A stretch of 64,000 bases of DNA. Source: Hydrogenophaga sp. Lineage in GTDB: Bacteria > Pseudomonadota > Gammaproteobacteria > Burkholderiales > Burkholderiaceae_C. Every line of letters starts with the position of its first letter. Within the stretch, counting starts at the first letter, position 1. The stretch spans positions 372,001 to 436,000 of the forward strand of contig NZ_JAUCZF010000001.1 of NCBI RefSeq assembly GCF_030373245.1, in the 5' to 3' direction. Positions 11,574 to 64,000 of this stretch are shown here, one piece after another. The notes beneath the pieces were generated by a model that made no database searches, had not been told where the DNA came from, and saw only the letters and a program-made list of their open reading frames with translations. Position numbers and translations under genes: made by a program.

Positions 11574-12047
11574 ATGAGCCGCGCGAAGTACTGGTTGATG
11601 AAATCCGAGCCCGACGAGTGTTCGATCGACGACGCGCTGGCCGCGCCGGGCGCCACCGTGCCCTGGACCGGCGTGCGCAACTACCAGGCCCGCAACTTCA
11701 TGCGCGATGCGATGCAGGTGGGCGACGGCGTGTTGTTCTACCACTCCAGCTGCCCAGAGCCGGGCATCGCTGGCATCGCCGAAGTGGCCTCGGCCACGCG
11801 CCCCGACCCGACCCAGTTCGACCCGGCCTCACCCTACTTCGACCCCAAGTCCCCACCCGACCAGCCACGCTGGCTGCTGCTCGATGTGAAGGCCTTGCGC
11901 AAAACCCGCCTGCTCGGCCTGCCCGAGCTGCGCGCCACGCCCGAGCTGACCGAGATGCTGCTGCTCAAGCGCGGCAACCGGCTCTCGATCACGCCGGTGA
12001 GCGAGGCGCACTGGGATCACATCACCCAGCGGCTGCTGAGCGGCTGA
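11574..12047 (+). CDS. EVE-domain protein
   Basis: A 157-residue single EVE domain (thymocyte nuclear protein 1 / YTH-related fold that binds modified nucleobases). Signatures are YWLMKSEPDE at the N-terminus, WTGVRNYQARNFMRDAM, VGDGVLFYHSSCPEPGIAGIAEV and ITPVSEAHWDHI near the end. It is intact and complete. A degenerate second copy of its central part lies at 18939-19195 fused to a dnaE2 relic. The cellular role is not established; EVE proteins are often linked with modified DNA or RNA. Confidence 0.88.
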   Translation: MSRAKYWLMKSEPDECSIDDALAAPGATVPWTGVRNYQARNFMRDAMQVGDGVLFYHSSCPEPGIAGIAEVASATRPDPTQFDPASPYFDPKSPPDQPRWLLLDVKALRKTRLLGLPELRATPELTEMLLLKRGNRLSITPVSEAHWDHITQRLLSG

Positions 12048-18313: not shown

Positions 18314-18700
18314 CTCCTTGTCAGCAACAGCTTTCCTTCTATCAGCTTCGGCATCCGCTGAAGGGCGCCGCCAAGAAACGAACGATTTGCGTCGACCCGG
18401 GTGAGTAGTCCGGGCGGGTTGGCTGATCCGATGCCTGGCGCGAATCGCTGTGGATCAGACACACGCATCGGCAGACTATCCCGGCCCGTTTAAGCATTGG
18501 GCTTTGCTTTGCCTAGATCACATCGCAAAAGTTGTGTCCATGAATGAACCCAAAATCAAGGTCACACATGCGGTTTAACACGTCGGCCCAAGCAGACACA
18601 CAACAACAGGTTGCCGCTTCGCGGCGCGTGTTGTGCGCCGTTGGCCATGGACGCTGAGCGACTGCATCCCCTTTTGGACTTCGACCGCTCCTGGCCGCCT
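18314..18700. other. Non-coding spacer with a large imperfect hairpin
   Basis: 387 bases, locally AT-richer than the surroundings, without a credible gene. A nested hairpin lies at 18603-18634 (outer ACAACA/TGTTGT, inner GCCGC-TTC-GCGGC). The right end carries debris (GACTTCGACCGCTCCTGGCC, 18676-18695) similar to that at about 12150, leading directly into the dnaE2 relic. Confidence 0.45.
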
Positions 18701-18915
18701 TCCGACATTCACCCCCCTCAATGAAAATCCCGGCTGCGTCCTGCCGCCAGCCGGCCGAGCAGCGGCGTCGGATCTTCCAGGTGGCCGGCGATCAGGTTGC
18801 GCACCTCGCCGTCGCGTTGCCAGGTGCCGTAGACCGCAAGCAGGCGTGAGCGGGTGAGTGCGGCGCGCTGGCGTTCGCGCAGCGCTTTCCAAACGATGAC
18901 CTGCACCACGCCGCT
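18701..18915 (-). pseudogene. Relic of the dnaE2 3' end
   Basis: Encodes the last about 65 residues of DnaE2 (GVVQVIVWKALRERQRAALT through GRLAAGRSRDFH and the stop), nearly identical to the intact gene's end at 33910-34110. Similarity continues about 20 bases beyond the stop codon (CCGACATTCAC then CTCAATG). It stops abruptly after GACCTGCACCACGCCG. The fragment lacks all catalytic regions. It shows that a piece of the dnaE2 terminus was copied or left behind here, next to an EVE-gene fragment. Confidence 0.8.
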
Positions 18916-18938
18916 TGCTGGCCGCGCCAGGCTCAACC

Positions 18939-19195
<257 letters not shown>

Positions 19196-23401: not shown

Positions 23402-23498
23402 GCTGAGTTTGGTTTCGCGTTGTGACAGTCGTTTGACGGTTCACGGAAGATTGGAAGACACCCCCTCCGGCGCGAAGTGACTTCACCCAGGATGCGGT

Positions 23499-23565
23499 GG
23501 AACCGGCTTTGCCGGGCCACTCGCATCGCCCCCTGAGGGGTGACGCCGCAGGCGGCGCGAGGGGT
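23499..23565. repeat. Dispersed palindromic repeat, family 1, copy A
   Basis: GGAACCGGCTTTGCCGGGCC, a variable spacer, GCCCCCTGAGGGG, then a GC-rich stem. Related copies lie at 26277-26341, inside dnaE2 at 34533-34606 (opposite strand) and at 63941-64000. Here it abuts the phnM stop codon and may act as a 3' end structure. Confidence 0.75.
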
Positions 23566-24722
23566 CATAAAACCCGCATGCCTTCTCTCCAGACCGCACG
23601 CACGACGCCGTGGCGCACGCCGTTGGGCATGTCCACCACGCGCACCTGGACCAGGTCGGCGCGCAGACCGGACTCGATAGCGCCTCGGTCGTGCAGACCG
23701 GTGGCGCGGGCCGGGTTGCGACTGACGATGGCTACGGCCTCGGGCAGGCTCAGGATCTCATCGGCCACCAACCGCAACACGGCGCTGAGCAGGCTGCCCG
23801 GCACATAGTCGCTGGAGAGGATGTCGAGCAGGCCGTGGCGCGCCAGATCGGCTGCGGCCACGTTGCCCGAATGAGAGCCGCCGCGCACCACGTTGGGTCC
23901 ACCCATCACCGTCAGCAGGCCACGCTCGCGCGCGGCCTGTGCGGCGGCCAGGGTGGTCGGGAATTCGGACATGCTGGCACCTTCGGCATGTGCCTGTTCC
24001 ACATGCGCGACGGTGGTGTCGTCGTGGCTGGCCAGCGCGATGCCGTGCTCGCGGCAGTAGTGCACGAAGTAGTCGCGGTGCGGCTCGGCGTATTGCGCCT
24101 GCAGGCGCTCGGCGTGCGCCACCTGGTGCTCGAACTTTTGCTGGCTCCACCCCTTCTTGCCGGTGTAGTAGATGCGCGCATGTTCGATGTTTTCCCACTG
24201 GCGCTGACCGGGCGTGTGGTCCATTAGCGAGATCAGCGACAGGCGCTCATGCCCGTGGAAGGGCTGGAACAGGTCAATGGTGTTGTGCGCCGGCAGCTCG
24301 CAACGCACGTGCAGGTGGTGGTCGGCGCGCAGCACGTTTTCAGCCGCGCAGGCGTCCAGCGTCTGCAGCACTGCGTCCCAGGCGGTGCCGCGCAGGCTCT
24401 CGTGGTCGGCATCGCCCACCCCCAGCGCATCAAACACGGTGGTGATGCCGGCGGCGGCGATCTCTGCGTCGTGCGCCAGCAGCGCGGGCATCTCGGCCCA
24501 CTGCACCTTGGGACGCGGCATCAGGTGGCGTTCGAAATTGTCGGTATGCACCTCGATGAAGCCGGGCATGAGGAAGTCGCCCTCCAGGTCGATGGCCTGC
24601 GGCAGTGAACTGTTGCTGGCACCGAACCCGGCGATGCGACCGGCCTCCACCGAAAGGCTGCCGGTCTGCACCTCGTCGGGAAGGACCAAACGGGCGTTCT
24701 TGAACACGATGGGCGGGTTCAT
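23565..24722 (-). CDS. phnM: Alpha-D-ribose 1-methylphosphonate 5-triphosphate diphosphatase
   Basis: A 385-residue amidohydrolase-superfamily enzyme that removes pyrophosphate from the PhnI product to give alpha-D-ribose 1-methylphosphonate 5-phosphate. The metal site is GFIEVHTDNFERHLMPRP (H-x-D variant), with SHDDTT and the late SSDYVPGS Asp. It overlaps phnL by four bases and is the last gene of the phnGHIJ-GNAT-KLM unit. Confidence 0.93.
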   Translation of the reverse strand: MNPPIVFKNARLVLPDEVQTGSLSVEAGRIAGFGASNSSLPQAIDLEGDFLMPGFIEVHTDNFERHLMPRPKVQWAEMPALLAHDAEIAAAGITTVFDALGVGDADHESLRGTAWDAVLQTLDACAAENVLRADHHLHVRCELPAHNTIDLFQPFHGHERLSLISLMDHTPGQRQWENIEHARIYYTGKKGWSQQKFEHQVAHAERLQAQYAEPHRDYFVHYCREHGIALASHDDTTVAHVEQAHAEGASMSEFPTTLAAAQAARERGLLTVMGGPNVVRGGSHSGNVAAADLARHGLLDILSSDYVPGSLLSAVLRLVADEILSLPEAVAIVSRNPARATGLHDRGAIESGLRADLVQVRVVDMPNGVRHGVVRAVWREGMRVL

Positions 24723-26220: not shown

Positions 26221-26276
26221 ATCAGTTTCCTCTTGGTGATCCGCAGCGCCTGCCCAGGCGCCATCCGGGAACGCCT

Positions 26277-26341
26277 TGAAACCGGCTTTTCCGGGCCAAT
26301 GGTGTTGCTCCCTGGAGGGGTTCACGCAAAGCGCGGCGGGG
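26277..26341. repeat. Dispersed palindromic repeat, family 1, copy B
   Basis: TGAAACCGGCTTTTCCGGGC, spacer, GCTCCCTGGAGGGG, then a GC-rich tail. It aligns with copies at 23499, 34533 and 63941 and lies just after the GNAT gene stop, inside the phn operon. Confidence 0.7.
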
Positions 26342-26346
26342 ATTTT

Positions 26347-26859
26347 TCATATCTCTACGACGAAGCTGAAGCCGTGGCGCTGGAAGCCGAGGGATTCGTA
26401 GAAGGCGTGTGCGGCCTGGCGTTTGGCGTTCGACGACAAGGCCAGCTTGTAGCAACCGGCATCGCGTGCTTGCTGCAAGGCATGGGCCATAAGCAGGCGG
26501 CCAATGCCCTGGCCCTGGCGCTCGGGTGCCACGACCACGTCCTCGGCGATGGCCGACGGCGTGCCGTTGTGAGCCAGGTTGTGCATCACCAGCAGCGCGT
26601 AGCTGCCGACCACGGCACCACCTTGGGCGTCGCAGGCAACAAACAGCCGGTAGCTGGGGTACTCGGCGAAGCGGCGGAACAGCGCACGCGCCTGCGCGGG
26701 CTCCAGCACCCGGCTGTCGAGGCCGGACTGGAGATAGAGCGTCAGCACATGGTCCAGATCGGCCTCAGTGGCCTGCCGGATCAGGGGGTGTATTGACGTA
26801 CCTCCGCCCTGCGGGCTGCGGTGCGAGCTTGCTTGGGAGCGGCCCTGCGCGGCGCTCAT
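26347..26859 (-). CDS. GNAT acetyltransferase of the phn operon (PhnO-like)
   Basis: A 170-residue N-acetyltransferase. The acetyl-CoA loop is APERQGQGIGRLL (R-x-x-G-x-G) and the C-terminal part LSSNAKRQAAHAFYESLGF matches the GNAT fold. Its place between phnJ and phnK suggests an aminoalkylphosphonate N-acetyltransferase (PhnO role), but it is not clearly closer to PhnO than to other GNATs. Its ATG overlaps the phnJ stop (ATGA). The first about 22 residues are encoded by a dispersed repeat (26800-26859), so the native start may once have been different. Confidence 0.75.
   Translation of the reverse strand: MSAAQGRSQASSHRSPQGGGTSIHPLIRQATEADLDHVLTLYLQSGLDSRVLEPAQARALFRRFAEYPSYRLFVACDAQGGAVVGSYALLVMHNLAHNGTPSAIAEDVVVAPERQGQGIGRLLMAHALQQARDAGCYKLALSSNAKRQAAHAFYESLGFQRHGFSFVVEI
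26800..26859. repeat. Dispersed repeat, family 2, forming the GNAT gene start
   Basis: On the minus strand it reads GGGCCGCTCCCAAG, later CCGCAGGGCGGAGGT. The first block recurs at 38078-38091 and, more loosely, in imuB. The second recurs at 31590-31604 just before phnN. It encodes the N-terminal leader of the GNAT protein. Confidence 0.6.
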
Positions 26860-33626: not shown

Positions 33627-33909
33627 ATTGAGCTTGGCTTGGCAGGAGCAGTCAACCAAAGTTTCTGTCAAACGCTGCAAACACAATTCGCGCAGCAAGG
33701 CTGCTTTCATTGTTGTTCTTTTTCTCCGGTTGCAAGCCGCTCAAAGTGAGGCAACAGTTCAACCTGTTTTCGGGGATTGCCTCACCCCTCACTTCGAGAG
33801 AAGTCGGCGATCCTGGGTCGTTCGATGAGATTGATTTTTGTCACGATGACCTCGGCGACGGCGCATGAGTTTTTCAACACAACTGGCCTCCCTCCGACAT
33901 TCACCTTCC
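33627..33909. other. Spacer after the phn island
   Basis: 283 bases. A 66-codon frame from a TTG (33628-33828) has no family sequence and no ribosome binding site. The last part (CCGACATTCAC at 33895-33905, next to CTCAATG) is duplicated at the left relic (18701). I see no promoter or terminator that I can support. Confidence 0.45.
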
Positions 33910-36900
33910 TCAATGGAAATCCCGGCTGCGTCCCGCCGCCAGGCGGCCCAGCAACGGCGTGAGGTCTTCCAGATGGCCGGCGATCAGATTGCGCACTTCG
34001 CCTTCGCGTTGCCAGGTGCCGTAGACCGCAAGCAACCGTGAGCGGGTGAGCGCGGCGCGCTGGCGTTCGCGCAGCGCCTTCCAGACGATGACCTGCACCA
34101 CGCCGGTTTCGTCTTCCAGGCTGACGAAGACCACGCCGTGTGCGGTCTCGGGCTGCTGGCGCAGGGTGACGATGCCGCAGTGGCGCACCAGACGACCGTT
34201 GGGCGCTTCCTTGAGTTCTTCGGCGGTCTGCAGGCGGCGCCTGGCGAGCAGCGGGCGCAGCAGCGCCAGCGGGTGGCGGCGCAGGGTGAGGCCCAGGCTG
34301 GCGTAATCCCACACGATGGCTTCGCCTTCGGGCGCTTCGGGCAGGGTCAACACGTCTTCGTCCACCGGCGCGTGGCTGAGCAGCGCAGGTGCTGGCTTGA
34401 GCGCAGCGGCGTCCCACACCTGTTGCCGGCGGTGGCCGCTCAGAGACAACAGCGCGTCGGCTGCCGCGAGTTGGCGCATGTCTTGTTGGTTCAGTTCCGC
34501 GCGACGGGCCAGTTCGTCGGCGTCAACAAAGCCACCCCCTGCGCCGCTTCGCGTCACCCCCCTGGAAGGGGGGCCACACCAGCGGCCCGGCAAAGCCGGT
34601 TCCGCGGTATGCGCTGAACAAGACCCGGCACGCGCTGTGGCGATGCGATCGGCTGCCGCCTTCGACAGGCCACTGACCAGCCGCAGCCCCAGGCGCACGG
34701 CTGGTTGCTCGCCAGTGGTTTCCTCCAGCGTGCAGTCCCAATCGCTGGTCATCACGTCCACCGCTCTCACTTCCACGCCATGCCGTTTGGCGTCCTGCAC
34801 CAGCTGGCTGGGTGTGTAAAAGCCCAGCGGCTGGCTGTTGAGCATGGCGGCGAGGAATTCGGCCGGGTGGTGGTGCTTGATCCAGCAGCTGGCGTAGACC
34901 AGCAGGGCGAAGCTGGCGGCGTGGCTTTCGGGGAAGCCGTAGCTGGAAAAACCTTTGACCTGCTCGAACACGCTTTGCGCAAACTCGGGGGTATAGCCGC
35001 GCTCGGTCATGCCGTCGATCAGGCGGCGCTCGTATTTCCCCAGACCGCCCTTGCGTTTCCAGGCGGCCATGGCGCGGCGCAGGCCATCGGCCTCGCCGGG
35101 GGTGAAGCCGGCGGCCAGAATGGCGATCTGCATGCACTGCTCCTGGAACACGGGCACACCGAGCGTGCGGCCCAGCGCCTGCTCCAGCGCCGCGCTGGGG
35201 TAACTCACCGGCACCTTGCCTTGCCGCCGCTCCAGATAGGGGTGGACCGCGCCGCCCTGGATGGGCCCAGGGCGCACCAGCGCCACTTCGATCACCAGGT
35301 CGTAGAAACAGCGCGGGCGCAGGCGCGGCAGCATGCTCATCTGCGCGCGGCTTTCGATCTGGAACACGCCCACGGTGTCGGCGGCGCAGATCATGTCGTA
35401 GGTGCTGGCGTCTTCGGCCGGGATGTCCTGCATCTGGAACACCTGGCCCTGGCGCGCGCCGATGAAATCGAGCGACTTGCGGATGGCCGTCAACATGCCG
35501 AGCGCGAGCACGTCCACTTTCAAGAGGCCCATGGCGTCGAGGTCGTCCTTGTCCCACTCGATCACGGTGCGGTCGGCCATGCTCGCGTTTTCGATCGGCA
35601 CCAGGCGCGAGAGCGGCCCGCGCGTGAGCACAAAGCCGCCGGTGTGTTGCGACAAATGGCGCGGAAAGCCCATGAGCTGGGCGGTGAGGCGAACGAGCTG
35701 GCGCACCGCGAGGTCCTCAGGCTCCAGCCCGGCTTCTTTCAGGCGCTCGGGGTCAATGGCTTTGCCGTCCCACCAGTAATGGCCCTTGGCCACGGCCGAG
35801 AGCGTGGCTTCGTCAAAGCCGAGCGCCTTGCCCACGTCGCGGATGGCGCTGCGTGGCCGGTAGCTGATGACGGCAGCGGTGAGCGCGGCGCGCTCGCGCC
35901 CGTATTTGGCGTAGAGGTACTGGATGACTTCTTCGCGCCGCTCGTGTTCGAAGTCCACATCGATGTCGGGCGGCTCGTTGCGCTCTTTCGAGATGAAGCG
36001 CTCGAACAGCACCGCCGTGCGCGCCGGGTCCACCTCGGTCACGCCCAGGCAGTAACAGACCGCGCTGTTGGCCGCCGAGCCACGCCCCTGGCACAGGATG
36101 CCCTGGGCGCGCGCGAAGGCGACGATGTCGTACACCGTCAAAAAATAGTGCTCGTAGTGGAGCTCGCCGATCAGCGCGAGCTCGTGCTCGATCTGGTGGT
36201 GCACCGAGGCAGGCACGCCCTGCGGCCAGCGTCGCCCAGCGCCTTCCCAGGCCAGGCGCCGCAGATAGCTGGCCGGGGTTTCACCCGCGGGCACCACCTC
36301 ATCCGGGTACTGGTAGCGCAGCTCGTCGAGCGAAAACACGCAGCGCTCGGCCACGCTCAGGGTTTCCCGCATCAGGTCTTCTGGATACAGCTGCGCCAGC
36401 GCCAGGCGCGAGCGCAGGCGCTGCTCGGCGTTGGGCGCGAGCGCGTAACCGCATTGGGTGAGCGGTCGGCCCACGCGCGTGGCGGTGAGCACGTCGTGCA
36501 ACGGCTTGCGCGAACGCAGGTGCATCTGCACATCGCCCAGCGCCACCAGCGGCACCGCGGTGAGCGCGCCGCTCTGGCGCAAGCGGTGCAACAGCAGCTC
36601 GTCGTCCAGGCGGCGCAGTTGCTCCACACCCAGCCAGCAGCGTCCGAGAAAGTGCTGCAACAACCAGCGGGCGGTGTCGTCCATCTGCGCCTGGGTGTTG
36701 CCGCGATCGGGCACGGCAATGACCAGGTTGTCGGCCAGGTGCTGCGCGTGAATGTCGCTCAGGCCGAGGTGGTAGCTGCCCTTGGGCGATGCCCGGCGCA
36801 GCCGGGTGATGAACTCACACAGGTTGCCGTAACCGTTGCCGTTGCAGGCGATCACCACCAGCGTGAACGGGTGGCTGCAGTCGACCCGGAACTGGCTACC

Positions 36901-37119
36901 CACCAGCAGTTTCAGACCCTGCTCTTTCGCGGCCACATGCGCGCGCACGATGCCAGCCAGCGAACACTCGTCGGTCAGCGCCAGCGCGGCGTAATCGAGC
37001 ACCTTGGCGCGCTCGACCAGCTCTTCGGGGCGGCTCGCGCCGCGCAGAAAGCTGAAGTTGGAGAGGCAGCGCAGCTCGGCGTAAGGCGGGATGGCGTGGC
37101 CAGACTGGACGGACTTCAT
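33910..37119 (-). CDS. dnaE2: Error-prone DNA polymerase with an in-frame repeat insertion
   Basis: A 1069-residue DnaE2/ImuC translesion polymerase. A PHP domain covers about residues 1-80 and the catalytic PDIDVDF Asp pair is at 384-390. OHTGG-type fingers (LSQHTGGFVLTRG) and an OB-fold tail (GVVQVIVWKALRERQR) follow. Works with ImuA and ImuB in SOS mutagenesis. Residues about 831-863 (SCSAHTAEPALPGRWCGPPS and on) have no counterpart in the family and are encoded by a copy of the dispersed palindromic repeat (34533-34606), inserted without breaking the frame in the helix-hairpin-helix region. The start at 37119 (MKSVQSG) fits the family; a GTG five codons upstream is possible. A fragment of its 3' end is duplicated at 18701-18915. 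Confidence 0.92.
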   Translation of the reverse strand: MKSVQSGHAIPPYAELRCLSNFSFLRGASRPEELVERAKVLDYAALALTDECSLAGIVRAHVAAKEQGLKLLVGSQFRVDCSHPFTLVVIACNGNGYGNLCEFITRLRRASPKGSYHLGLSDIHAQHLADNLVIAVPDRGNTQAQMDDTARWLLQHFLGRCWLGVEQLRRLDDELLLHRLRQSGALTAVPLVALGDVQMHLRSRKPLHDVLTATRVGRPLTQCGYALAPNAEQRLRSRLALAQLYPEDLMRETLSVAERCVFSLDELRYQYPDEVVPAGETPASYLRRLAWEGAGRRWPQGVPASVHHQIEHELALIGELHYEHYFLTVYDIVAFARAQGILCQGRGSAANSAVCYCLGVTEVDPARTAVLFERFISKERNEPPDIDVDFEHERREEVIQYLYAKYGRERAALTAAVISYRPRSAIRDVGKALGFDEATLSAVAKGHYWWDGKAIDPERLKEAGLEPEDLAVRQLVRLTAQLMGFPRHLSQHTGGFVLTRGPLSRLVPIENASMADRTVIEWDKDDLDAMGLLKVDVLALGMLTAIRKSLDFIGARQGQVFQMQDIPAEDASTYDMICAADTVGVFQIESRAQMSMLPRLRPRCFYDLVIEVALVRPGPIQGGAVHPYLERRQGKVPVSYPSAALEQALGRTLGVPVFQEQCMQIAILAAGFTPGEADGLRRAMAAWKRKGGLGKYERRLIDGMTERGYTPEFAQSVFEQVKGFSSYGFPESHAASFALLVYASCWIKHHHPAEFLAAMLNSQPLGFYTPSQLVQDAKRHGVEVRAVDVMTSDWDCTLEETTGEQPAVRLGLRLVSGLSKAAADRIATARAGSCSAHTAEPALPGRWCGPPSRGVTRSGAGGGFVDADELARRAELNQQDMRQLAAADALLSLSGHRRQQVWDAAALKPAPALLSHAPVDEDVLTLPEAPEGEAIVWDYASLGLTLRRHPLALLRPLLARRRLQTAEELKEAPNGRLVRHCGIVTLRQQPETAHGVVFVSLEDETGVVQVIVWKALRERQRAALTRSRLLAVYGTWQREGEVRNLIAGHLEDLTPLLGRLAAGRSRDFH
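34533..34606 (-). repeat. Dispersed palindromic repeat, family 1, copy C, inside dnaE2
   Basis: On the minus strand: GGAACCGGCTTTGCCGGGCC, spacer, CCCCCTTCCAGGGGGG, then GACGCGAAGCGGCGCAGGGG. It aligns end to end with copies at 23499, 26277 and 63941. It is read through in frame as part of DnaE2. Confidence 0.82.
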
Positions 37120-37168
37120 GGCGCCGTCCCACACGAGTCGCCATGGCGCTTGAGCGGTGGCTCTTGGG

Positions 37169-37984: not shown

Positions 37985-38222
37985 GACTACCAACAGGGGT
38001 GGGTATGGAGGGCGCAGCCCCTGCGCAGAAGAGCAAGGACGACGCAGCGCGGGAGCAACGGGCCAGCCGCCGGGCCGCTCCCAAGGCAGACCCAGCCCCC
38101 GCTGGGGGCTGAGGGCCGCGGCTCCGAACCTGCCTGCGCAGGCTCGGACAGCCCGAAGAGGTACGGCCTGCGGCCGTGACGCGCCCTGCAAGGGGCGACC
38201 TGCGCAGCAGCGGAGCGTGGGG
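37985..38222. repeat. Repeat-rich intergenic block, family 2
   Basis: Between imuB and the membrane-protein gene. It contains GGGCCGCTCCCAAG (38078-38091), the stem CAGCCCCCGCTGGGGGCTGA and other GC palindromes (CCTGCCTGCGCAGG, GGCCTGCGGCC). The first block also occurs at the GNAT gene start (26800-26859). It may form mRNA structure that separates imuB from the downstream genes. Confidence 0.55.
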
Positions 38223-38230
38223 GTTCTGTC

Positions 38231-39622
38231 TCATGCGAAATGCCCGTGCAGGTACCAGGCGGGTGCTTCGTCCAGCCGGGTTTGAAACACCCACAACACA
38301 CCCGCTTGTTCCGACAGCGCCACCCAGTAGTCGCGCGTCACGTTGCGCGTGTGGCCGGGCTCGGGGGCGACGGTGATCTCGACGCGATCCCACCAGCCGC
38401 CTTCGATGCGCTGCGGACCGGCGAGCATTTGCAGTTCGCCCTGGTACAGCGGCCGGTTGCCGTGCATGGCGAGCTTGAGCGGTTGTGGCAGCACAAAGGT
38501 GGGTTGGGGCCCATCCGGCGCGACCGCGGGCTTGCGAGGCAAGGTCTGCAGCGCAGGCTGCCAACGGCACATCCACTCGGGCCGGTGGTCTTCCAGCAGC
38601 ACCGGGCGCAACACGCGCTCGGGGCCCAGGCGTGCCGCCAGGCGCTCGAGCACCAGGTGCAAAGTTTCACCCTGGTGCACACTGTCAGGCAGCAGCGAGT
38701 GGCTGGTCGGCTGGAGCTGGTGGACCTCGTCGGCGGTGAGCCGCAAATCACCCACGGGTGCGGCCAGTTCAATCCGAGCGAGGTGCTCGGCCAGCAGGCG
38801 GCACAGGTGCTCCACATCGCGCATCGGCTGGGCGGTGCGCACGGTATGTGACCCCCACCCTGGCTGCGCCTGGCCCCCCAAGGGGGTGCAGCCGTTCTTG
38901 GGGCGGCCCGGCGGACGGCTGGCATCGCCCTCGCCCACCGACCGTGAACGCATCGCATCAAACGCCCAGTGCAGGGTGAAAGCCGTCACGCCACTGTGGC
39001 GCGCGCTCAGCCAGCCGCACAGCTGCAGCAGCAGACGCCGCGCGCCGAACAGCAGGGCGCTGGCGTCTTCCACGCGGTGCATCAGCTCCAGCCGCGCGTC
39101 AAACGTCTCGGGCAGCTGCACCCATTCGTGCACCTCGGGCATCAGGCCATAGGCCTGATCGAGCGCGTGCAGCAGCTGCTTGTCGAAGCGCCTGGCCACG
39201 CCGCCGCGCGGCAGCGCGCGCAGGTCGCCCAGGGTGCGGCAGCCGATGTGGGCCAGCGTCACCGCGTGCGGCCGCACCGCGCTCAAGACAGCGAGCGGCA
39301 GCGCGTCGAGCACGGTTGACAGGGGAGCGCGCCCGCCGTGCTGAATACCGGCGCGCGACAGCGCCAGCGCGGCCAGGCTGTTGGGTGCCCAGGCCAGGCG
39401 CTGCACGCCGAGTTCTTGCCCCTCGGCCCACACGCGCTCGGCGAGCGCACGCCGGCCACCGAACAGGCGCAGGCTGCCCGCCACCTCCATGACCACGGCT
39501 TCGTCGGCGACGGCGACCCGGGGCGTGAACTGCAGCGCCCAGACCGCCAGCGCCTGCAGCGCCGCGTCAATGGAAGGGCACGCGTCGTCGGGGCGGGGCA
39601 GCAGCAGCGCGGACCAGAGCAT
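38231..39622 (-). CDS. imuB: Y-family polymerase-like mutasome subunit with an in-frame repeat insertion
   Basis: The 463-residue ImuB is a Y-family-like protein without polymerase activity that links the beta clamp with DnaE2. Features are LWSALLLPRPD at the start, FTPRVAVADEAVVMEVAGSL and LRLFGGRRAL, and a little-finger-like region. Residues about 227-262 (including GDASRPPGRPKNGCTPLGGQ) interrupt the expected FDAMRS...VRTAQPMRD continuity and are encoded by a repeat copy (38850-38925). The ATG at 39622 lies inside the imuA 3' end, a 56-base overlap. Confidence 0.88.
   Translation of the reverse strand: MLWSALLLPRPDDACPSIDAALQALAVWALQFTPRVAVADEAVVMEVAGSLRLFGGRRALAERVWAEGQELGVQRLAWAPNSLAALALSRAGIQHGGRAPLSTVLDALPLAVLSAVRPHAVTLAHIGCRTLGDLRALPRGGVARRFDKQLLHALDQAYGLMPEVHEWVQLPETFDARLELMHRVEDASALLFGARRLLLQLCGWLSARHSGVTAFTLHWAFDAMRSRSVGEGDASRPPGRPKNGCTPLGGQAQPGWGSHTVRTAQPMRDVEHLCRLLAEHLARIELAAPVGDLRLTADEVHQLQPTSHSLLPDSVHQGETLHLVLERLAARLGPERVLRPVLLEDHRPEWMCRWQPALQTLPRKPAVAPDGPQPTFVLPQPLKLAMHGNRPLYQGELQMLAGPQRIEGGWWDRVEITVAPEPGHTRNVTRDYWVALSEQAGVLWVFQTRLDEAPAWYLHGHFA
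38850..38925 (-). repeat. Dispersed palindromic repeat, family 2-like, inside imuB
   Basis: Minus strand: GGGCCGCCCCAAG, then CACCCCCTTGGGGGGCCAG and a GGTGGGGGTC tail. It is a GC palindrome of the kind found between genes here, but is read through in frame as part of ImuB. Confidence 0.65.
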
Positions 39623-40472
39623 GGTCGGCTTGGGCAGAGGCGTTGGGGGACGCCACCGGCGCGGGTGCGCGGTTCGTGGTCTGAGCGACCGCTGGCGCAC
39701 CACCGCTCGCGGGCGGGCGCAGCCGCAAGGCGCTGGGCCGTTGCAACCGCGGCGTGAGGATGGCCTGCAGACCGGCGGGCACCGAGGGCAGATGCAGCGT
39801 GTTGACCAGCGGCGGCCCCTTGCGCTTGAGCAGGTCGACCTGCAGCGCCCAGTCAGCCCCCACGCGGGCGAGCAGGCGCAGCGGCGCGGCGGACGATTCC
39901 TGCGCCGCCGTGCTGGGACGGCACACAAACACCGGCCCGGCGTGGCCGGCGGCCAGCACCTGCAGGCGGCGAACCTGCTCGGGTCGCACCTGCGGCAGCC
40001 AGACCAGCAAGGCACCACCCGCGTTGGCCTTGACCAGCTGCTCGGCCGACCACAGGCGCTCGGCCGGTGTCTCGGCCTGCACCCAGACCAGGTGCCGCTC
40101 ATCCAGCCCCGCCAGCCGCAGACCCGGCAGATGCGGCGTGCGCGGCGGGCCGACCACCACCACCGTGCGCGCGGCGGCGCACACGCGCTGCAGCGCGGGA
40201 CCGAGCAGCCGCCACTCCAGCGTGCTGCTCTGCGGACTCAGGATCTCGGTGAGGCTGTGGCCCGGCCAGCCGCCGCCAGGCAGTTCGGCGTCAAGCGCAT
40301 GGAAACCGCTCGGGTGCACGGTGACCACCGGCGCACCGAGCTGGTCGCCGCGCCACAACGCCGCCGACACCGCAGCCGGCAAAGCGCCCGCCGCGAAGAC
40401 TGGGCGGCTGGCGCAGGGGACAGAAGGTCCGGCCGACGGCGTGTCGGCCAGCAAGGCGGTGGCGGGAGGCAT
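39567..40472 (-). CDS. imuA: SOS mutagenesis subunit
   Basis: The 301-residue ImuA has a RecA/SulA-like fold with FHALDAELPGGGWPGHSLTEI near residue 55 and WVQAETPAERLWSAEQLVK. It lacks a clear Walker A. It acts with ImuB and DnaE2 in damage-induced mutagenesis. The ATG at 40472 fits the family. The LexA box is 56 bases upstream, and the gene overlaps imuB, giving an imuA-imuB-(membrane protein)-dnaE2 cassette. Confidence 0.85.
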   Translation of the reverse strand: MPPATALLADTPSAGPSVPCASRPVFAAGALPAAVSAALWRGDQLGAPVVTVHPSGFHALDAELPGGGWPGHSLTEILSPQSSTLEWRLLGPALQRVCAAARTVVVVGPPRTPHLPGLRLAGLDERHLVWVQAETPAERLWSAEQLVKANAGGALLVWLPQVRPEQVRRLQVLAAGHAGPVFVCRPSTAAQESSAAPLRLLARVGADWALQVDLLKRKGPPLVNTLHLPSVPAGLQAILTPRLQRPSALRLRPPASGGAPAVAQTTNRAPAPVASPNASAQADHALVRAAAAPPRRRVPFH

Positions 40473-40527
40473 GTAGGGGCAGCAAGGGCAGAGAACGGCT
40501 GGAACAAGGAAAAGGAGAAGGCGATAG

Positions 40528-40549
40528 ATACTGTTTTTTCGTACAGTAT
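40528..40549 (-). promoter_or_regulatory. LexA (SOS) box of the imuAB-dnaE2 cassette
   Basis: ATACTGT-N8-ACAGTAT, a perfect 7-bp inverted repeat containing the CTGT-N8-ACAG consensus. It lies 56 bases upstream of imuA, which places the whole cassette under LexA control. Confidence 0.88.
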
Positions 40550-40600
40550 CAAAGATGCTTCTGCCTGTCCAGAAAAACTTGAAAACCCGACGGGCAAGGA

Positions 40601-40644
40601 CCTGTTCACACCATGTTTCTGAGTGCAATGAGGTGCAAAAGGCG
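40601..40644. repeat. Dispersed repeat, family 3, copy 1
   Basis: CCTGTTCACACCATGTTTCT, then GAGTGCAATGAGGTGCAAAA and GGCG. A second copy at 63833-63877 reads CCTGTTCACACTATTTTCCT, then GAGTGCGAACGAGGTGCAAA and AGGCC. It lies upstream of the LexA box, outside any gene. Confidence 0.65.
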
Positions 40645-63877: not shown

Positions 63878-63940
63878 CTAATCTAATGGCGTTGGCCCTC
63901 GCGATGCCGAGCGCTCAAAGGGGCGTGGTCCAGGAGCACC

Positions 63941-64000
63941 GCGGAACTGGCTTTGTCCGGCCGCAGGTGTTGCCCCCTCTCAAGGGGTTCGCGCGCAGCG
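63941..64000. repeat. Dispersed palindromic repeat, family 1, copy E (truncated by window end)
   Basis: GCGGAACTGGCTTTGTCCGG, spacer GCAGGTGTT, then GCCCCCTCTCAAGGGG and GCGCGCAGCG. It aligns with copies at 23499, 26277 and 34533. Confidence 0.65.

Follow-up and report, generated by a model that had tools for sequence, protein, structure and literature searches.

The 64,000-nt stretch of Hydrogenophaga DNA analysed here (the window) carries imuA, imuB and dnaE2 in the same direction on its minus strand (Table 1). We identified the dnaE2 product as an error-prone DNA polymerase from its match to the curated family NF004225, above the family cut-off, and observed the Pfam domains PHP, NTPase, finger, HHH_6 and OB. 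The imuB product, read from an internal ATG, matched no Pfam or NCBIfam family at threshold; we provisionally take the gene to be imuB from its position beside imuA and dnaE2. It lies 1.1 kb upstream of dnaE2, and it had matches in 55 of 67 same-genus genomes, some of them short and confined to the repeat.

Table 1. Genes, repeat copies and insertion sites in the window
Feature	Position (nt)	Strand	Evidence or remark
R1 copy	23484..23571	plus	79.8 bits
R1 copy	26263..26350	plus	59.1 bits
dnaE2 (error-prone DNA polymerase, 1074 aa)	33910..37134	minus	frame intact; NF004225, 1470.6 bits vs cut-off 939
R1 copy inside dnaE2	34528..34618	minus	97.2 bits, rank 2 of 150 scored genome copies
Net in-frame insertion in dnaE2, site B	34531..34617	minus	codon comparison with empty and filled relatives
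Site A of dnaE2, beta-hairpin turn, residues 805-811	34702..34722	minus	empty in window genome; predicted model
imuB (SOS mutasome partner), from internal ATG	38234..39622	minus	matches in same-genus genomes (see text)
R2 copy within the reading frame of imuB; net gain 69 nt (23 codons)	38845..38928	minus	54.0 bits
imuA, first gene of mutasome cluster	39567..40628	minus	NF033429, 198.2 bits vs cut-off 150
R1 copy, clipped by window end	63928..64000	plus	51.9 bits; full copy G000:C1:435928-436017

The original prediction held that a dispersed palindromic repeat sits in frame in dnaE2 at 34533-34606. On the minus strand this segment has GGAACCGGCTTTGCCGGGCC together with a C-rich/G-rich hairpin, and it lies within an open frame of 1074 codons that runs on across the element. 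It aligned with three further copies in the window, and a covariance model of the family, R1, recovered all four (one in dnaE2 and three others). Comparison with relatives placed the net insertion at a position we call site B, between an R plus four codons and a conserved F of DnaE2. The insertion comprised 87 nt, or 29 codons (residues 840-868, peptide SAHTAEPALPGRWCGPPSRGVTRSGAGGG); an in-frame gain of residues had been correctly foreseen, at an extent of about 33 (831-863) that the relatives did not bear out. The predicted element length of 74 bp was too short, since the actual unit is ~89 bp and its variable left arm had been omitted. These data confirm that 34531-34617 is a copy of a dispersed palindromic repeat inserted in frame in dnaE2.

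Alignment of 30 copies gave an R1 unit of ~89 bp with three hairpins. Its first part consists of a variable arm, CCGYGGAACCGGCnnnGCCGGGCCRC and a partner arm; a C6/G6 hairpin follows, and then GACGC-GAA-GCGGCGC with a G-run. The R1 model has 89 model positions and was built from 28 copies of the window genome only. We observed that its 24 model pairs were 96.4% paired across the 28 copies, compared to 40-53% in slid controls. Changes on both sides were present in 13 of the 24 pairs, and none of 500 shuffles reached any of five measures, which is strong evidence for compensatory base changes in the R1 hairpins. The dnaE2 copy had a GC content of 0.71, and no non-standard pair was marked in its printed alignment to R1. 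In Rfam, no family reached its gathering score within the window, and a search of six loci gave two matches at chance level.

R1 is abundant in the window genome, as anticipated: at least 150 copies were found at E ≤ 0.01 (150 of 150 scored, from 4622 first-look candidates). With a 101-nt query, for which 40 of 145 candidates were scored, the genome search gave at least 47 matches. Among the scored candidates, the closest other genome copy was 86% identical to the dnaE2 element over query positions 4-86. With up to 65 candidates scored per genome, at least one R1 match was present in each of 67 genomes of the genus; across the order, matches were found in 6 of 160 genomes, in two families.

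We next compared 54 DnaE2 linkers, which represent 53 genomes out of the 67 of the genus. They derive from 55 loci in 54 genomes, G044 supplying two of the loci; the G010 locus, which lacks the C-terminal part, and 13 genomes, most without a clear DnaE2 match, were left out. The site B element occurred in four linkers (window genome, G021, G048 and G058), and the other 50 were empty, in agreement with the expectation that related DnaE2 proteins would lack the segment. Empty relatives typically had R, four codons and then the conserved F or a similar residue, and filled ones had 28 or 29 codons between the fourth codon and the F. All four fillings shared one codon boundary, one orientation and one frame. 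The R1 model, although built from the window genome's own copies, detected the element in dnaE2 of the three other genomes at 82.3, 87.0 and 77.6 bits. With 50 of 54 linkers lacking the segment and its match to the repeat model, we rejected the reading of it as an ordinary variable DnaE2 stretch. Assembly error as the sole cause was likewise rejected, because three other assemblies, including one that consists of a single contig of 5.43 Mb, have the same insertion.

The distribution of the insert was patchy. Site B was empty in the closest relative, G030 (93% identical over residues 8-838), which was the sister of the window genome in the gene tree; G058 fell among empty relatives, and G021 and G048 stood beside empty ones. 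With the insert columns removed, a 23-row DNA tree needed four changes, at least three of them forced by well-supported branches, and a single clade for the four insert-bearing genomes was rejected on it (p-AU = 6.4e-5). One ancient site B insertion followed by several losses, or one insertion spread by recombination between species, would account for the identical boundary, frame and orientation, and we judge the chances of such a single origin to be evenly balanced. Identity between the window genome and G030 fell to 53% and 67% beside the insert, compared to 89% over the gene, as it would for an imported tract, but the region adjoining the insert was variable in all relatives compared. G032 carries R-AGDN-PVHAE-DL in place of the F region, a stretch of the same length that resembles the left end of the element; going by its sequence, it may be a remnant of the element, as a single origin would allow. 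Against a single origin, inserts of separate branches resembled each other (identity 0.85-0.88) no more than they resembled other copies, where identity reached 0.90, in a comparison set of ~147 window-genome copies plus seven from relatives and not each genome's full set. Shared descent and independent insertions were not told apart by this nearest-copy comparison. The history of site B may have involved repeated insertion, loss or recombination.

To describe where R1 ordinarily resides, we compared its copies with nearby frames. The codon-usage model of the analysis was a rough one, based on 19 window ORFs. In 126 of 150 copies, a coding-like frame reading towards the G-run end had its stop codon at -2 to 28 nt from that end. 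The other R1 end passed the same test in 13 of 150 copies, as did 86 of 2945 random positions, drawn from the same fetched stretches and not from the whole genome. R1 is an oriented gene-end repeat with its ordinary home directly behind stop codons. For most copies tied to gene 3' ends in this one orientation, the distance to the stop codon was no more than 10 nt. It is possible that the copies behind genes have a 3'-end role, as RNA or DNA, not described before. Orthologous gene ends differed in carrying R1. A match abutted the dnaE1 end in 7 of 30 loci (G012 had almost no sequence past that end), and in 11 of 30 loci one followed the end of imuB at a distance of up to about 90 nt. By coordinate comparison, no R1 match was inside any of 30 DnaE1 or 30 ImuB genes; those that abut the imuB end reached no more than 5 nt into the gene.

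The hairpin might instead work at the DNA or RNA level within dnaE2, through pausing or transcript stability, with the peptide as a by-product. The tie of the family to gene 3' ends is consistent with this, as is the intact pairing of the coding copies (no broken pairs in the window copy and one in each of two others, for the three printed of four). However, R1 in dnaE2 is reversed relative to transcription compared to the 126 gene-end copies, and we consider such a role very unlikely.

Of 147 full R1 copies, 144 had one or more frames without a stop when read in the orientation of the dnaE2 copy. A frame was open through the element in 67 of 150 copies, and 20 of these, dnaE2 included, were examined by domain; they were hand-picked, and coding copies in short or Pfam-less genes may be missed. 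Among the 20, domain support on both sides of R1 was observed for dnaE2 only. The other 19 were rejected as coding copies for want of support: 17 had no Pfam family, and two (Pirin; NAD/Fer2 oxidoreductase) had domains only downstream of the element.

A second DnaE2 loop, site A, lies between WDCTLE and VRLGL. Dispersed repeats other than R1 occupied it in 21 of the 54 Hydrogenophaga linkers, GGGAGAGGGNNGGGGTGAGGG in 14 (≤2 mismatches) and CGTTCGGGCTGAGCCTGTCGAAG or its complement in 7 (≤4 mismatches; five of the seven at ≤1). The CGTTCGGGCTGAGCCTGTCGAAG repeat was dispersed, with matches in 56 of 67 genomes and a highest count of 100 in G061, and among the genomes listed none matched its reversed pattern. 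For the GGGAGAGGGNNGGGGTGAGGG repeat, an extended form was found in 36 of 67. Controls for the 21-nt motif were weak: it matched other parts of dnaE2 10 times, each time at 4 mismatches, and 30 DnaE1 genes 6 times at ≤4 mismatches. Three linkers (L056, L060 and L112) had repeat-like peptides at site A that failed the DNA motif test, and these were not counted. In L046, L047, L110 and L113, 64-116 residues with CGTTCGGGCTGAGCCTGTCGAAG-type repeats lay between the anchors; the genomes of these loci had 5, 100, 53 and 53 motif matches, respectively.

Taking the two sites together, 22 of 54 linkers carried a repeat at site A or B, three of them at both, and 32 carried none. DnaE1, the paralogue, was 3555-3579 nt long in 50 end-to-end rows (partial or absent rows of other genomes being excluded), within 5 codons of the window genome's gene. 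Inspection by eye of DnaE2 linkers from seven records of other genera (nine tried) revealed no such repeat insert. DnaE2 was hit at two loops by three distinct repeat families in one genus.

The in-frame insertion in imuB belongs to a second dispersed family, different from R1, for which a search gave at least 49 matches and for which an alignment and a model (R2) were made. The insertion was absent in 29 of 30 ImuB loci. R2 lay in frame in coding sequence at 7 of 29 loci (29 of the 30 from that search), in six genes: imuB, glnE, recQ, xdhA and two acyl-CoA dehydrogenase genes (imuB plus loci L062-L064, L070, L081 and L082). In glnE, R2 was present at two loci, with three tandem units in the translation. 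The family match broke or stretched at R2 in all of these genes except imuB, for which no family model matched; the lookup of empty relatives covered imuB alone. In recQ, 33 residues (472-504) split two stretches aligning to solved RecQ, just before CGNC, presumably zinc ligands. The L069, L086 and L088 frames and several opposite-strand frames also scored positive in the R2 coding test, and no family was found for L069 or L086. A weak second R2 match (38053-38115, plus strand, 41.6 bits) lay near the 3' side of imuB.

We modelled DnaE2 with AlphaFold2 on a 33-row alignment (mean pLDDT 80.6). Residues 838-866 had pLDDT < 50 and were placed between helices 825-836 and 872-879, and site A fell in the turn between strands 802-804 and 812-814. 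The model suggests that the insert is most likely a disordered surface loop in the helix-hairpin-helix region. A PDB search with the insert peptide gave nothing at E ≤ 1. Outside the inserts, dnaE2 is under purifying selection, with dN/dS of 0.113 between G021 and G048 (both insert-bearing) and 0.122 between the window genome and the empty G030. The insert itself showed no sign of purifying selection (dN/dS 0.749, 0.381, 0.677 and 1.45 in four pairs), with little power from 28 codons.

Inserts in DnaE2 and ImuB could tune damage-induced mutagenesis and be kept for that; such a role was proposed for other species by Di Nocera et al. 2013 (PMC3733652). Consistent with this, DnaE2 is hit at two sites by three families and its paralogue DnaE1 has no such inserts, ImuB, DnaE2 and RecQ all carry inserts in the window genome, and enrichment in replication and repair genes is reported in the same paper. 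On the other side, 32 of 54 linkers have no repeat at all, glnE, xdhA and the acyl-CoA dehydrogenases are hit as well, and no sign of purifying selection was seen within the insert, with little power from 28 codons. A conditionally needed gene would also be expected to gather inserts without benefit. We regard tuning of mutagenesis as improbable. A broader proposal, in which the two DnaE2 loops of Hydrogenophaga are preferred acceptors of repeat-coded peptides from distinct families at fixed positions, together with ImuB and RecQ, inserts modulate damage-induced mutagenesis, and selfish hairpins and mutator machinery co-evolve, is doubtful as well, though marginally less so. Altered polymerase function through the insert is possible but unsupported.

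We consider it likely that a dispersed hairpin repeat entered dnaE2 without disturbing the frame and is now translated into a tolerated disordered loop. A ~89-bp repeat normally found behind genes would occasionally land inside one. Such an insertion would persist because its length is a multiple of three, it has no stop in the frame used, and it lies in a loop tolerated by the fold. DnaE2 would receive inserts repeatedly since extra residues can be accommodated in two of its loops and since the cell requires this enzyme only when its DNA is damaged. We infer translation in the cell, tolerance as the reason and the conditional need. Two observations count against this explanation. The same boundary, frame and orientation in three separate branches are more regular than expected if random insertions were merely tolerated, and the sole Y1 transposase gene found is flanked by repeats other than R1.

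Repeats of this kind have precedents. The paper of Di Nocera et al. 2013 (PMC3733652) describes REPs inside genes, many of them in replication and repair, and names DnaE2. Like the repeats seen here, these GTAG/CGTC REPs are short palindromic repeats found in frame in genes, with error-prone DnaE2 and further replication and repair genes among the recipients, and like R1 they are otherwise placed mostly close behind genes. They differ from R1 in form: R1 has 89 model positions and three helices, whereas the REPs are stem-loops of 20-40 bp with a GTAG or CGTC end. R1 ends in the alignment with CAGC.. and ..GGGGG, its GACG/CGTC word is internal in most copies, and no flanking gene for RAYT, the transposase with which GTAG families are associated, was found for R1 in the window genome. 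Hydrogenophaga also differs in having three distinct families in two DnaE2 loops across one genus. ImuB, which has an insert here, is absent from the main text of PMC3733652.

A second precedent is BRE, a ~90-bp betaproteobacterial repeat with GC near 69% that is mainly intergenic and sometimes in coding sequences, according to the BRE section of Hot et al. 2011 (PMC3110155). R1 agrees with this description in length, GC content, host group, mainly intergenic placement and occasional presence in genes. The R1 family is probably BRE or close to it, going by the published description. That section does not mention dnaE2. A BRE locus beside lexA has been published for Bordetella, and no lexA-adjoining copy was among the R1 matches of two genomes of family f4.

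Repeat DNA becoming protein is a process known mainly from Rickettsia, where palindromic elements were reportedly described by Ogata et al. in 2000 and 2002. The likeness to these elements that had been proposed for the dnaE2 insert holds for the mode of working and fails for membership. As in the Rickettsia elements, going by PMC10969869, a palindromic repeat is translated in frame in unrelated genes and apparently tolerated. The palindrome here is in frame in coding genes and absent from orthologues, but the host is Hydrogenophaga, a betaproteobacterium with a GC-rich genome, the element is shorter and R1 lies mostly outside genes; the comparison with the Rickettsia elements was by description. 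Presence in several unrelated genes was seen for R2; for R1, domain support was found for dnaE2 only, among 20 of 150 copies examined. R2 is the better parallel to the protein-coding palindromes of Rickettsia.

Intragenic REPs, including in DnaE2 (PMC3733652), and a ~90-bp betaproteobacterial repeat sometimes found in genes (PMC3110155) are known already from those papers. In the literature searches made, no other published account of repeats in DnaE2 or Hydrogenophaga was found. As far as these searches show, two things are new: inserts recur in the same DnaE2 loops within a single genus, with the paralogue as a clean control, and the two mutasome genes dnaE2 and imuB are both hit. DnaE2 offers a natural series of filled and empty alleles of repeat DNA turning into protein, with DnaE1 as a built-in control of the same family. 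This makes it directly testable whether cells use the REPs in repair genes or only tolerate them.

We also observed other repeats in this genome. One Y1_Tnp gene was found, a Y1-family transposase gene (L116, G000:C2:131472-131798) between inverted GGGGTCAGATTCCAATT repeats; among the 150 scored R1 matches, the closest one on the same contig was ~13 kb off. The 3' end of dnaE2 is duplicated over 226 nt, at 18691-18916 and 33883-34108 (90% identical, 15 kb apart), which makes a partial gene copy. Beside the dnaE2 fragment copy lies one unit of a 220-nt direct repeat, 85% identical between 11672-11891 and 18955-19174.
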